Positions 30,224 to 37,622 of a DNA stretch of 64,000 nt are shown here, piece by piece. The position numbers and the translations under genes are program-made. Location of the stretch: NCBI RefSeq assembly GCF_014270065.1, contig NZ_JACNME010000008.1:1-64000 (forward strand), given 5' to 3'. This DNA comes from Quadrisphaera sp. RL12-1S (GTDB lineage: Bacteria; Actinomycetota; Actinomycetes; Actinomycetales; Quadrisphaeraceae). Position 1 is the stretch's first letter, and each line of letters begins with the position of its first letter. The notes beneath the pieces are model-generated. The model ran no database searches, had not been told where the DNA came from, and saw nothing but the letters and a program-made list of their open reading frames with translations.

Positions 30224-30655
30224 GTGGCTTCCGACGGACCTGCGCACGACGACCGCTCCTCGCGGGAGCAGCTGCGGCGCCAGCACGACGAGACCGTCGA
30301 GCGGCGGGCCTCCGACGCCGTGCAGCGCCGCCGTGCCGCGGTGGACCTGTGGCGCCACCAGCGCGACGACGAGGACCGCCGCCGCCAGGAGGGTGAGCAG
30401 CAGCGCACCGCCGAGCGCCGCGCCCGCGACGAGCAGGTGCGCCTGCGCCACGCCGCCGAGGACGAGGAGCGGCGCCGGCAGCGGGTGCTGGAGACCGCCC
30501 TGCGCCGCGAGCGCGTGGTGGCGCACCTGGCGCGCTCCGACCCAGCGCGCCAGGAGGACCTCCTGCGCGCCCACGAGGACGTCGAGCGGGCACGGGTGAA
30601 GTGGCAGGAGGCCGACGCCGTGCGCCGCCAGTGGCCCTCGCGCTGGCCGTGGTGA
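30224..30655 (+). CDS. charged coiled-coil protein
   Basis: 143-aa, Arg/Glu/Asp/Gln-rich protein, almost entirely predicted coiled coil (RRAAVDLWRHQRDDEDRRRQ and onward), with a Trp-rich C-terminus (RRQWPSRWPW). No family recognised. GTG start with AAGGGGG about eight bases upstream. The stop overlaps the following methyltransferase start by four bases, so they are coupled. Confidence 0.65.
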   Translation: MASDGPAHDDRSSREQLRRQHDETVERRASDAVQRRRAAVDLWRHQRDDEDRRRQEGEQQRTAERRARDEQVRLRHAAEDEERRRQRVLETALRRERVVAHLARSDPARQEDLLRAHEDVERARVKWQEADAVRRQWPSRWPW

Positions 30656-31371
30656 GCGCGGCGCCGGGCGCCGGCGGGGCGCCGCCGGACTTCGTGCGAG
30701 CACCGAACCAGGCCGACCGGCCGGAGGTCTACGAGCTCGAGAACACCGCGATGGACCCCTCGGGCCTGGTGCTCGACGCCCTGCGCGAGCTGGCCCCGTG
30801 GCGGGGCCGCAGGCTGCTCGACCTCGGCTGCGGTGCGGGGTACTGGCTGCCCGGGTACACCGCCGAGGCCGCGGAGGTGGTCGGGGTGGAGCCCGACCCC
30901 TCGCTGCTGCCCCTGGCGGCCGCCCGTCCGGGGGGTGCCCGGGTGCTGCAGGGGTCGGCCGAGCACCTGCCGCTGCCGGACGCCAGCGTCGACGTGGTGC
31001 ACGCGCGCTTCGCCTACTTCTTCCCGCCGGGCTGCGACGCCGGGCTCGCGGAGGTCCGCCGCGTGCTGCGCCCGGGTGGGTCGCTGGTGGTGGTCGACAA
31101 CGACCACCGCGCGGGCGAGTTCGCCGAGCTGCTCGCCGCCAGCCCGTGGGCCGCCTACCAGGGGGCCGCCGGTGCGACGGACGCGTGGTGGGCCCAGCGC
31201 GGGGCCGTGCGCCGCGAGGTCATGAGCAGCTGGGACTTCCAGCGCCGCGCGGACCTCCAGGCGGTGCTGCGGCTGGAGTTCCCGCCGCAGGTCGCCGGCC
31301 CGTGGCTGGCGGCGCACCCGGGTGCCCTGTCGCTGAGCTACGGCTACGTCCTCTTCTGCGTCACCGCCTGA
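30652..31371 (+). CDS. class I SAM-dependent methyltransferase
   Basis: 239-aa methyltransferase with motif I LLDLGCGAGYW (about residue 50), an acidic end of the second strand (VGVEPDPS), and VVHARFAYFFPPGCDAGLAEVRRVLRPGGSLVVVDN for motifs II-III. Residues 1-30 are low complexity. GTG 30652 overlaps the upstream stop (GTGA). The 3' end overlaps the convergent SDR-kinase gene by 28 bases. Substrate unknown. Confidence 0.88.
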   Translation: MSAAPGAGGAPPDFVRAPNQADRPEVYELENTAMDPSGLVLDALRELAPWRGRRLLDLGCGAGYWLPGYTAEAAEVVGVEPDPSLLPLAAARPGGARVLQGSAEHLPLPDASVDVVHARFAYFFPPGCDAGLAEVRRVLRPGGSLVVVDNDHRAGEFAELLAASPWAAYQGAAGATDAWWAQRGAVRREVMSSWDFQRRADLQAVLRLEFPPQVAGPWLAAHPGALSLSYGYVLFCVTA

Positions 31372-32654
31372 GCGTCCCAGCCGGCCACGCGCAGCACGGC
31401 GGCGGCCACCTCGGCGGGGCCCATCCCGTCGACGTCCACCACGTGGTCGTCGACCCCGGCCGCCTCCAGCACCCCGTGCAGCTCGGCGCAGCGGTCCAGG
31501 TGCCACCGCAGCCCGTCGTCGTCGGCGTGGCGGGCCTGGAGGCGCTCCCGCACGGTGGCGACGTCGGCCCGGAGCCGCACCACCACCAGCGGCGACTCGA
31601 GCGCCCGCTCGCACCGCTCGCGGGAGGCGCGGTCCTCCAGCACCCCGGCCAGCACCAGGCGCTGGGCGCCGGCGCGGCGGAGGTTGGCGGCCACGTCCCG
31701 CAGGTTGGCCAGCGCGAGCTCCTGCTGGAACGGGTCGTGCGCGGGGGCCGGCCAGGCCCGGCGCAGCTCGTCGAGGTCCACCCGGGCGTGGGCGGCGCCC
31801 CGCTGGTCGAGCAGGTGGCCCAGCTGCTCGGCGGTGGTGGACTTCCCCGCGCCGACGGTGCCGTTGAGCAGCAGCGCCGCTGCCGGGCGGGTGGGCTCAG
31901 GCGGCCTGGGCGCCTCCCCGCCGGCGAGGGCCGCCGCCCCGGTCCGCACGGCGTCGCGCCAGACGGGCGGCACCCACGCGAACCCGCCGCCGTCGACCAG
32001 GGCCAGGGCGTGCGCGGCGACCTCCTCGGGCGCCATCCCCTCCGGGGACATGCCCGTGCGGACGAGGTCGGGGCAGACGGCGTGCACGCGCACCGGGGTC
32101 CCCTCCAGCGCCATCGCCGCGTGCCGGGCGACGGCGAGGACGGCGTGCTTGGACGGCCCGTACGCGCCACCGCCCCCGAAGACGGCGGCCCCCGCGAGCG
32201 AGGCGGTGATGACCACGTGCGCGGGCTCCCCGGTCGCGAGCAGCCGCGGCACGAAGGCCCGCAGCCCGTTGACCACCCCGCCGAGGTTGATGTCGAGCAC
32301 GCGGCGCCAGTCCTCGGCGGGCACCTCCCACGGCGCCCCCAGGTGCTCGCCGAGGACGCCGGCGTTGAGGAACAGCCAGCGCGCGTCGGGCGCGCTGCGC
32401 GCCAGCTGCTCGACCTGGGCGGGGTCGGCGACGTCCACCCGCTCCGCCCGGCCCCCGGTCTGGGCGGCCACGGCCCGGGCGGCCCCGAGGTCGACGTCCG
32501 CGACGACGGGCCGCACGCCCCGGTCGCCGAGCGCACGGGCGAGGGCGGCGCCGATGCCGCTGCCGCCGCCGGTGACCACCGCCACCGCTCCTGAGGACGA
32601 CGACCAGGACGACGACGAGGACGTGCGGGGGGCTCCGGCGCGGGTCGTGATCAC
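31344..32654 (-). CDS. short-chain dehydrogenase fused to a P-loop kinase
   Basis: 436-aa two-domain protein in one uninterrupted frame. Residues about 22-250 are an SDR oxidoreductase: TGGGSGIG cofactor loop, NAG at the fourth strand, catalytic Ser in VITASLAGA and YGPSKHA (Tyr-x3-Lys). After a Pro-rich linker, residues about 262-430 form a small kinase/NTPase with Walker A NGTVGAGKSTT (about 268) and RVDLDELRRAWP, LAGVLEDRASRE segments similar to gluconate/shikimate-type kinases. The serine-rich N-terminus (SSSSSWSSSS) is unusual. GTG 32654 start. Both catalytic sites look intact. Confidence 0.85.
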   Translation of the reverse strand: MITTRAGAPRTSSSSSWSSSSGAVAVVTGGGSGIGAALARALGDRGVRPVVADVDLGAARAVAAQTGGRAERVDVADPAQVEQLARSAPDARWLFLNAGVLGEHLGAPWEVPAEDWRRVLDINLGGVVNGLRAFVPRLLATGEPAHVVITASLAGAAVFGGGGAYGPSKHAVLAVARHAAMALEGTPVRVHAVCPDLVRTGMSPEGMAPEEVAAHALALVDGGGFAWVPPVWRDAVRTGAAALAGGEAPRPPEPTRPAAALLLNGTVGAGKSTTAEQLGHLLDQRGAAHARVDLDELRRAWPAPAHDPFQQELALANLRDVAANLRRAGAQRLVLAGVLEDRASRERCERALESPLVVVRLRADVATVRERLQARHADDDGLRWHLDRCAELHGVLEAAGVDDHVVDVDGMGPAEVAAAVLRVAGWDAQAVTQKRT

Positions 32655-35035: not shown

Positions 35036-36223
35036 TCAGGCCTCCACCGAGACGTCGGTGAGGGGCTTGGAGCAGCACAGCAGCACCTTGCCCATCGTCA
35101 CCTCGCGCGGACGGATGCCGCCCTGGTGCTGCATGTCGACCTCGCCGTCCACCAGCGTGGTCTTGCAGGTGCCGCAGACGCCCTCGCTGCACGAGGACGG
35201 CGGGGTCAGACCGGCGCGGAACGCCGCCTGCAGGATCGTCTCGTCGCGTCCGCAGCGGATGGAGCGACCGCTGCGCGTGAACTGCACGGCGAAGCCCTCC
35301 TCCGCCTCGGCGGGGGCACCGGCGGAGTCACCGGCAGAGGCGTCGGCCACGCGCTCGACGTCCGGGGCGTCGAGCGAGGGCTCCGCGGAGGCGTCGCCCA
35401 GGTCGAGCCGCTCGAAGCTGAACGTCTCCTGGTGGTACTGCTCCGCCGGCAGCCCGGCGGCGAGCAGCGCGGCGCGGACGGCGTCCATGTACGGCGGCGG
35501 CCCGCAGACGAAGACCTCCCGGTCGGCGAAGTCCGGCACCGCGGCGGTGAGCATCGGGCCGTCCAGCTGGCCGACGAGCCCGGACCAGCCGGGCTCGTCA
35601 CCGGTCTCCGCGACCACGTGCTCCACCCGCAGCCACGGGTGCAGCGCCTCCAGGGCCTCGAGCTCCCGGCGGAAGATGATGTCCGCGGGAGTGCGGGCGC
35701 TGTGCACGAAGACCACGTCGGCGTCGCGGCCGAGGTCGGCCAGCGTCCGCGTCATGGACATCAGCGGCGTGATGCCGCTGCCGGCGGACAGGAACAGGTA
35801 CCTGCCCGACGGGTGGCGGCTGTGGCTGAACACGCCCAGCGGCGGCTGCACCCGCAGGGCGGTGCCGGGCCGCACCGTGTCGTGCAGCCACGGGGAGACC
35901 ACCCCGCCCGGCTTGCGCTTGACCGTGATGGACAGCGCGTGGGGCCGGGTGGGCGGGGAGGAGACGGTGTAGGAGCGCAGCACCTCGGTGCCGTCCACGT
36001 CCAGGCGCAGGGTGATGAACTGCCCCGGCTCGAAGTGGAACAGGTGCGGCTGCGGGGAGGCGAAGGTGAACGTCTTCACGTCGTGCGTGACGTCCAGCAC
36101 CGCCTGGCAGACGAGCAGCGACTCGTCCTCCTCGTCGCCCCAGGTGGTCAGGCCGCCGGGGTGGGGCGGGGCCTGCGGGGCCGGCGCGGCCCCGGTGGTG
36201 GGGGCGGTCGCGGCGCTGGTCAT
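35036..36223 (-). CDS. gbcB: glycine betaine demethylase reductase GbcB
   Basis: 395-aa electron-transfer partner of GbcA. FAD-binding ferredoxin-reductase domain (LRSYTVSSPP, about residue 81), NAD domain (FLSAGSGITPLMSM, VFVCGPPPYMDAVR), then a linker rich in Ala/Glu/Asp (about 280-310) and a C-terminal plant-type 2Fe-2S ferredoxin with CSEGVCGTC and a final cysteine in LLCCS. Electrons pass from NADH through FAD to the Fe-S centre and on to the oxygenase. ATG overlaps the gbcA stop by four bases. Confidence 0.92.
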   Translation of the reverse strand: MTSAATAPTTGAAPAPQAPPHPGGLTTWGDEEDESLLVCQAVLDVTHDVKTFTFASPQPHLFHFEPGQFITLRLDVDGTEVLRSYTVSSPPTRPHALSITVKRKPGGVVSPWLHDTVRPGTALRVQPPLGVFSHSRHPSGRYLFLSAGSGITPLMSMTRTLADLGRDADVVFVHSARTPADIIFRRELEALEALHPWLRVEHVVAETGDEPGWSGLVGQLDGPMLTAAVPDFADREVFVCGPPPYMDAVRAALLAAGLPAEQYHQETFSFERLDLGDASAEPSLDAPDVERVADASAGDSAGAPAEAEEGFAVQFTRSGRSIRCGRDETILQAAFRAGLTPPSSCSEGVCGTCKTTLVDGEVDMQHQGGIRPREVTMGKVLLCCSKPLTDVSVEA

Positions 36224-37533
36224 GCGGTGGCCTCCACGCCCAGGTGCTCGCGCAGGCGGGTGACGTACCAGTTCACGAAGCCCTCGACCTGGTCCTCGAC
36301 CATCGAGTACGGACCGGGCACGTAGCTCGGGTCGCCGCAGCCGATCTGGGTGTTGGTCACCAGCACCCGGTCCTGGTCGTTGGTGGCGTTCCAGACGGTG
36401 CACAGGCTCTCGAGGTCGTAGTCCACGCCCTCCTCCGCGTCCGGGTGCACCAGCCAGGTGGTGCGCAGGACGCTGGTGGTGGGCGACGTGGGCATCACCG
36501 AGAAGACCACGGCGTGGTCGCCCAGGAAGTGGAACCAGCTGTTGGGCTGCATGTGCAGCGACAGGTCGCCGAAGGCGGCGTCCTTGACCTCGCCGATGAG
36601 CTTGGAGCACACGGCGGCGCCGTTCTCGGCGAAGGACTTGCCCTCGCCGTCCAGCGGCAGGTGCGAGAGCTGGAAGCCGACCTGGCGGGTGTCCAGCTGC
36701 ATGTGGTCCTGCAGCGGCGTGCCCTGCTCGCGGCGCTTCTCGGCGAGGGCGTCCGCGGCCTTCGTGTACCTGTCGAAGAGCGGCTTGAGACGAGGGGTGA
36801 TGTCCTCCTCGTCGTAGGCGAAGATCGGGAAGTAGGCGCTGGTGAGCTCGGGGTGGCCGTCGCAGTGGTAGCACTCGCGGTTGTTCTCCATGACGAGCTT
36901 CCAGTTGCCCGCCTCCGGCAGGTCCACCTGACGGGCGACCTTGGCCTTGTCCAGCTGGTAGGGCGCCAGGTGCGGCTCGACGATCTTCGCGACCTCGTCG
37001 AAGTCCGCCGGGGCCTCGGGTGCCAGGCAGATGAAGACCAGGCCGGCGAGGTTGCGCACGTGCACCGTGCGCAGCGAGAAGCAGGTCTTGTCGAACGTGG
37101 GGGGCTGGGACTCGGCGTGCAGCAGCGAGCCGTCGAGGGCGTAGGTCCAGCGGTGGTAGGGGCACACGATGTTGCCCACGAAGCCCTTGTCCTCCAGCAG
37201 CCGCGAGCCGCGGTGCCGGCAGACGTTGTGGAAGGCCGCGATCTGGTCGTCGTCGTCGCGCACGACGATGACGGAGGCCTTGCCGACCTCCACGGTGACG
37301 AAGTCGCCCGCCTCGGGGATCTCGGCGGCCGCGGCCACGAAGATCCAGTTCTGGGTGAAGATGACGTCGATGTCGAGGTCGTAGACCTCCTGGCTGGTGT
37401 AGAAGCCGCCCTCCAGGCTGTAGCCCTTCTGGCGCCGCGCGACCAGCTCAGCGGCGCTCGCACCGGGCGCTGGGGCGGCGGTCGCGGAGGCCGGGCTGCT
37501 CGCGGCGGTGGGCGGCGTGAGCTGAGTGGTCAT
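36220..37533 (-). CDS. gbcA: glycine betaine monooxygenase GbcA (Rieske)
   Basis: 437-aa Rieske non-heme iron oxygenase alpha subunit. The 2Fe-2S motif is CRHRG (about residue 105) with CPYHRW (about 125); the mononuclear iron site shows NNRECYHCDGHPEL (about 218). It demethylates glycine betaine to dimethylglycine, releasing formaldehyde. Assignment as betaine rather than carnitine or choline oxygenase rests on its operon with gbcB and the neighbouring dmg/sox genes. GAAGGGAAG precedes the ATG. Confidence 0.92.
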   Translation of the reverse strand: MTTQLTPPTAASSPASATAAPAPGASAAELVARRQKGYSLEGGFYTSQEVYDLDIDVIFTQNWIFVAAAAEIPEAGDFVTVEVGKASVIVVRDDDDQIAAFHNVCRHRGSRLLEDKGFVGNIVCPYHRWTYALDGSLLHAESQPPTFDKTCFSLRTVHVRNLAGLVFICLAPEAPADFDEVAKIVEPHLAPYQLDKAKVARQVDLPEAGNWKLVMENNRECYHCDGHPELTSAYFPIFAYDEEDITPRLKPLFDRYTKAADALAEKRREQGTPLQDHMQLDTRQVGFQLSHLPLDGEGKSFAENGAAVCSKLIGEVKDAAFGDLSLHMQPNSWFHFLGDHAVVFSVMPTSPTTSVLRTTWLVHPDAEEGVDYDLESLCTVWNATNDQDRVLVTNTQIGCGDPSYVPGPYSMVEDQVEGFVNWYVTRLREHLGVEATA

Positions 37534-37622
37534 GGGGCTTCCCTTCGGACCGGCTTCTCCGGTGTCGCACGGGCGGGCGCTGTCGGTGGGCCTGGCGGGT
37601 CTCGCGGGCGTCATCGCCCGGG

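Follow-up and report, generated by a model that had tools for sequence, protein, structure and literature searches.

A short-chain dehydrogenase and a P-loop kinase share one open reading frame in a single Quadrisphaera genome

Introduction

When two enzymes that usually stand alone are found in one reading frame, does the joining tell us that they share a substrate? The question is raised by a gene of the GC-rich bacterium Quadrisphaera sp. RL12-1S, which lies in a stretch of 64,000 nucleotides of contig NZ_JACNME010000008.1 (hereafter the window) and in which a short-chain dehydrogenase (SDR) is followed directly by a P-loop kinase. We have analysed the frame, the two domains, their junction and the occurrence of each half in other genomes.

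Results

One unbroken frame runs through both domains

The frame at 31344–32654 on the minus strand translates into 436 residues with a single, terminal stop, and the whole of it lies within one contig of the assembly. The features considered here are as follows.

31344..32654, minus strand: SDR–kinase fusion gene, 436 amino acids counted from a GTG at 32654
31899..32588, minus strand: classical SDR (NAD(P)-dependent short-chain dehydrogenase) part, residues ~23–252
31881..31943, minus strand: junction or linker, residues ~238–258
31347..31904, minus strand: P-loop small-molecule kinase part; the segment used is residues 251–436, with the complete kinase from ~258
30601..31371, plus strand: methyltransferase, convergent neighbour, given for context only

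Third-position G+C is 0.93–1.0 in all the 40-codon windows printed from codon 21 onward, and at the junction the codon-position G+C pattern is continuous, with the same frame on either side. As the frame is unbroken, the fused protein is probably made; its computed mass is about 45 kDa, against about 23 and 20 kDa for two separate polypeptides. The start of the gene is uncertain, because residues 1 to ~20 are Ser-rich and atypical in their codon-position profile, are modelled with pLDDT values of 31–43 in the whole-protein model, and precede the apparent start of the SDR orthologs, which by eye corresponds to residues ~20–22 of the window protein. The true start may lie ~20 codons inside the GTG at 32654. 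Upstream, the open frame extends as far as 33572.

The SDR half carries a complete set of signature residues

Residues ~23–252 have the features of a classical SDR, with a TGxxxGxG motif (TGGGSGIG, 28–35), NAG (97–99) and the Ser–Tyr–Lys residues S152, Y165 and K169. Pfam adh_short (PF00106) matches at residues 24–204, well above its cut-off (E 1.3e-31, 110.1 bits against 26.6). Many solved SDRs also match this half and, among the 60 matches listed, the best-matching stretches stop short of the kinase domain. Of 201 NCBIfam families matched, the 25 listed all stay below their cut-offs. D53 sits at the end of strand 2, where we take an Asp to mark a preference for NAD(H); its presence suggests an NAD(H)-preferring oxidoreductase.

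The kinase half is a probable small-molecule kinase without a favoured substrate

The C-terminal half combines a Walker A motif (GTVGAGKS, 265–272), an acidic pair (D293-x-D295) and R375 with Pfam matches above cut-off to AAA_33 (residues 262–379, E 7.9e-8, 33.2 bits against 27) and AAA_18 (32.3 against 29.4), the features of a P-loop kinase of the AAA_33/AAA_18 type. The Walker A glycines, K271, D293, D295 and R375 are invariant across 32 aligned members of the kinase family. A sequence-only reading of the locus had held that both catalytic domains are intact in one frame, and the 436-residue frame, the two sets of motifs and the Pfam scores bear this out. The intact motifs point to catalysis by both halves.

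Further Pfam families scored close to their cut-offs. Zeta_toxin reached 22.7 bits against 22.3 over profile positions 11–60 of 199 alone, which is the P-loop part, and APS_kinase was barely above its threshold (21.3 against 21.1). More specific assignments were rejected: chloramphenicol phosphotransferase by Pfam CPT (E 0.26, 11.5 bits against 22), the GAR/GrdA gentamicin resistance protein (NF038208, 19 bits against 170), gluconokinase GntK/IdnK (TIGR01313, 16.1 bits against 113.75) and adenylyl-sulfate kinase (TIGR00455, 16.7 bits against 138.7). Across the 32 aligned kinases, the NCBIfam GAR/GrdA model finds matches in 20 (best E 1.4e-9; 8.7e-4 for the window member), and that for adenylyl-sulfate kinase gives weak matches in 23.

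The kinase structure is predicted with a pLDDT of 92.1. Its top fold in VIA-align is 1qhs (Z 16.0, 2.8 Å, 160 aligned residues, 24% identity), with adenylate kinases (Z 16.0), gluconate kinase 1ko5 (Z 15.9) and TmrD 2vli (Z 15.0) close by; we treated Z values differing by 1 or less as tied, and the ties include the adenylate kinases. In Foldseek an APS kinase leads, followed by 1qhs, and in a PDB profile search APS kinases head the list with TmrD fifth. Sequence and predicted fold thus support well a small-molecule kinase for which folds and profiles favour no single substrate; a CPT-like or GAR-like family placement would draw on the fold and on weak profile matches. The fold, the Walker A motif and the DxD pair make a small hydroxylated metabolite or xenobiotic the most likely phosphate acceptor.

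The junction may hold traces of a former gene boundary

In the whole-protein model, confidence falls below 50 at residues 238–255. This model (pTM 0.51) was built on 11 sequences, one of which is the same gene again, from an alignment in which the final residues of its two SDR relatives are misplaced, and it does not fix the relative arrangement of the SDR and kinase halves.

Between codons 2 and 430, the two other frames of the same strand contain one stop, a TGA at codon 252. The stops of nine SDR orthologs align with codons 254–257 of the window gene, so that the TGA lies 2–5 codons ahead of them. On the kinase side, five of the 12 relatives printed have a GTG aligned exactly with codon 250 (L031, L033) or 251 (L032, L034, L037) of the window gene; in L031 and L033 this GTG is the start, and codon 250 in the window is AGG, which is not a start. 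Five bases before this AGG stands GGGGAGG, which resembles a ribosome-binding site. The out-of-frame stop and the AGG at codon 250 may be remnants of a former boundary between two genes; they may also have arisen by chance.

Relatives of the SDR half stand alone

Nine SDR orthologs were found, 52–59% identical to the window protein: one in Allokutzneria (L009, Pseudonocardiaceae) and eight in family f35, these being eight of 297 genomes sampled from another order and all members of that family. The fetched flanks of all nine, ~1.5 kb for most, lack a relative of the kinase. Across 297 genomes of the window's own order, the sole SDR match at E≤1e-32 is the window's own gene, and the best match among the other 12 genomes of its family has E 4.7e-27 and 39% identity. 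When one genome per species was scanned by pattern, a method that reaches close relatives only, 12 SDR relatives were recovered, L009 alone at ortholog level, and no match to the kinase.

The kinase family is widespread and joins several partners

The kinase occurs in 55 of the 297 genomes of the window's order, at 59 places (E≤1e-12), with one copy in the window genome. It is present in four of the five other members of the genus, with identities of 59–61% in two of them and 41–42% in the other two. The closest relative (63%) belongs to another family of the order (G291), and the kinase need not have been resident in this lineage before the fusion.

The partner at these 59 places is the SDR once (the window's own), a domain without a Pfam family once and a GNAT acetyltransferase 23 times; 34 places have none of these three. 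This test used one SDR, two GNAT and one L023-type domain as queries, other partners being outside its reach. At 14 further distinct kinase places we found no SDR, GNAT or L023-type domain, so that 48 of 73 places in all lack the three partners and the SDR is joined at one, the window's own. Four weaker kinase matches (L027–L030) were left out of the counts and tested for the SDR alone, which was absent. Nine plasmid records match the kinase at E≤1e-10; the whole fusion protein found no plasmid match at E≤1e-35.

The GNAT fusions come from family f9, where the kinase lies in frame behind the acetyltransferase in 23 of the 23 places found; Pfam was checked at four of these loci. This GNAT–kinase is a conserved two-domain protein. 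The domain without a Pfam family (none at E≤0.01) comprises ~190 residues and precedes the kinase in frame at L023:901-2049, in a member of the window's genus (G011); a copy 59% identical to it is present in G010, also of this genus, where the fetched locus has no kinase. We considered fusions with still other partners at 13 loci with long upstream frames (12 among the 59) and rejected them, most of these frames having the codon-position G+C pattern of a wrong frame. The pattern is less clear upstream of L032, L049, L073 and L119, which were not counted as fusions.

No second SDR–kinase fusion was found

Searches with the whole protein against 394 genomes of the class (E≤1e-45) and 200 genomes of family f35 (E≤1e-35), and the pattern scan across species, returned no second fusion; such searches score a few best candidates per genome or require exact short peptides, and a diverged fusion could escape them. 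Among all the genomes inspected, the fusion is present in a single one. A conserved SDR–kinase family, which would need several species to share the fusion, was accordingly rejected. Literature searches by term matching, some of them judged from the titles listed, brought up no report of such fusions, which does not prove them unreported. The pairing had been called uncommon, and this holds: the SDR is found at one of the 73 kinase places, and the kinase beside none of the nine SDR orthologs. The sequence-only reading had also named an outcome that would tell against it, namely relatives that carry the two domains only as separate genes; this is what the comparison shows, with nine of nine SDR orthologs lacking the kinase in their fetched flanks and 72 of 72 other kinase places lacking the SDR.

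The gene neighbourhood is not shared with the kinase loci compared

The fusion gene and the methyltransferase gene converge, with a 28-base overlap at their 3' ends (31344-31371). Ten neighbouring ORFs were scanned and include an HpcH-type aldolase, a chemotaxis receptor, the methyltransferase, an HATPase, a Rieske oxygenase and a folate enzyme, four being without a match; no sugar or polyol enzyme and no resistance gene was recognised among them. At 35036-37614 the Rieske oxygenase is next to a frame resembling a ferredoxin/flavin reductase, and the two are possibly a pair for quaternary-amine demethylation.

The neighbours of the window gene (25–38.5 kb) were compared, on crude ORF calls, with those at 19 kinase loci and one SDR locus, these 20 being drawn from 18 genomes, and none matched. 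The comparison is incomplete, the ORF caller having overlooked the kinase itself in five of the 19 kinase loci. Five clusters of neighbours are common to three or four loci, and some of the ORFs in them look like wrong-frame reads. With no neighbour in common, the kinase loci compared did not show an ancestral arrangement. At the DNA level, similarity to G008 and G009 stops near the point where the methyltransferase gene ends, and that to G003 earlier, so that no arrangement from before the fusion was recovered; the G008 contig runs out 394 bases past its match.

Discussion

We consider it probable that this gene is a recent, lineage-specific fusion whose product connects two probably functional enzymes through a short flexible linker. 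An entire gene for a classical SDR would have come to sit directly upstream of a P-loop kinase gene. The SDR family is otherwise seen here in Pseudonocardiaceae-type genomes, a distribution that suggests horizontal gain of the SDR. One joined gene would have resulted once the SDR stop and the kinase start were lost, most likely encoding a bifunctional polypeptide of two independently folded enzymes. Since the relatives inspected carry the halves apart and the kinase family is joined to other proteins as well, the joining most likely came about recently through an accident of gene order and does not prove a two-step pathway.

The apparent fusion might instead be two separate genes brought into one frame by a sequence error at the junction. 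One assembly alone was examined, and the alternative-frame stop at codon 252, just ahead of the ortholog stops, would fit such an error. The kinase frame, however, offers no ATG, GTG or TTG after codon 236 and before the Walker A motif, with CTG alone at 261 and 262; frame 1 is likewise devoid of starts between codons 216 and 270, and the codon-position G+C is undisturbed. A separated kinase could possibly begin at GTG 236, inside the SDR end, but after that codon it would have no usual start, which makes an error the poorer alternative, and we judge it quite improbable. Marginally better placed, but still improbable, is a dedicated two-step enzyme, with oxidation or reduction of a polyol or another hydroxylated compound by the SDR and phosphorylation of the product by the kinase. 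The catalytic sites of both halves are intact and gluconate kinase is among the nearest folds, yet it is one among many tied folds, and the pairing recurs at none of the nine SDR orthologs or 72 other kinase places. The two-step polyol conversion proposed earlier finds no support here, with the kinase family also fused to GNAT or the L023-type domain and the ten neighbouring ORFs devoid of a recognised sugar or polyol enzyme.

Rather more plausible, though still unlikely, is a detoxification enzyme in which both domains modify an antibiotic or xenobiotic, a GAR/CPT/TmrD-like kinase being helped by the SDR. The GAR/GrdA matches in 20 of the 32 aligned kinases and the presence of CPT 1qhs and TmrD 2vli among the nearest folds speak for it, as may the finding that no window neighbour recurs at the kinase loci compared, a pattern expected of accessory genes. 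On the other side, the window member, at 19 bits, falls far below the GAR cut-off (170), the adenylyl-sulfate kinase model matches more members (23 of 32), and no resistance gene is recognised nearby. As a bolder proposal, this little-studied kinase family could serve repeatedly as the C-terminal half of unrelated proteins to yield new two-activity modifying enzymes, the SDR–kinase being a newly formed composite that would oxidise and phosphorylate the same antibiotic-like or sugar-like compound; we give it as little credence as the dedicated two-step enzyme. It is possible that both halves act on one substrate, but the fusion itself is poor evidence for a common substrate, because the same kinase family is fused to GNAT or the L023-type domain elsewhere.

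Under the recent, lineage-specific fusion that we prefer, the locus may capture a gene fusion soon after its formation, with possible traces of the old boundary. With three or more unrelated fusion partners and no assigned substrate, the kinase family offers in that substrate a useful target for study. The case also calls for caution, as a fusion found in a single genome should not be taken as proof of a shared pathway.

Each half resembles known proteins. The signature motifs are like those of classical SDR oxidoreductases (adh_short, PF00106), and the solved SDR 5ig2 matches residues 21–212 (E 1.4e-25), whereas the window protein adds a C-terminal kinase. For that kinase, the chloramphenicol phosphotransferase of Streptomyces venezuelae (1qhs) is the top VIA-align match, but it is tied with adenylate and gluconate kinases. 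The garosamine-specific aminoglycoside resistance proteins GAR/GrdA (NF038208) are, like the window kinase, short P-loop proteins with a Walker A motif and a DxD pair; the paper on GAR that describes these motifs suspects that a hydroxyl group of the drug is phosphorylated by kinase activity (PMC7085159). A parallel to the architecture is offered in family f9 by the fusions of GNAT and P-loop kinase (L050–L052, L054, L096–L114), whose C-terminal half is of the same kinase family and whose N-terminal partner is an acetyltransferase, in contrast to the SDR of the window protein.
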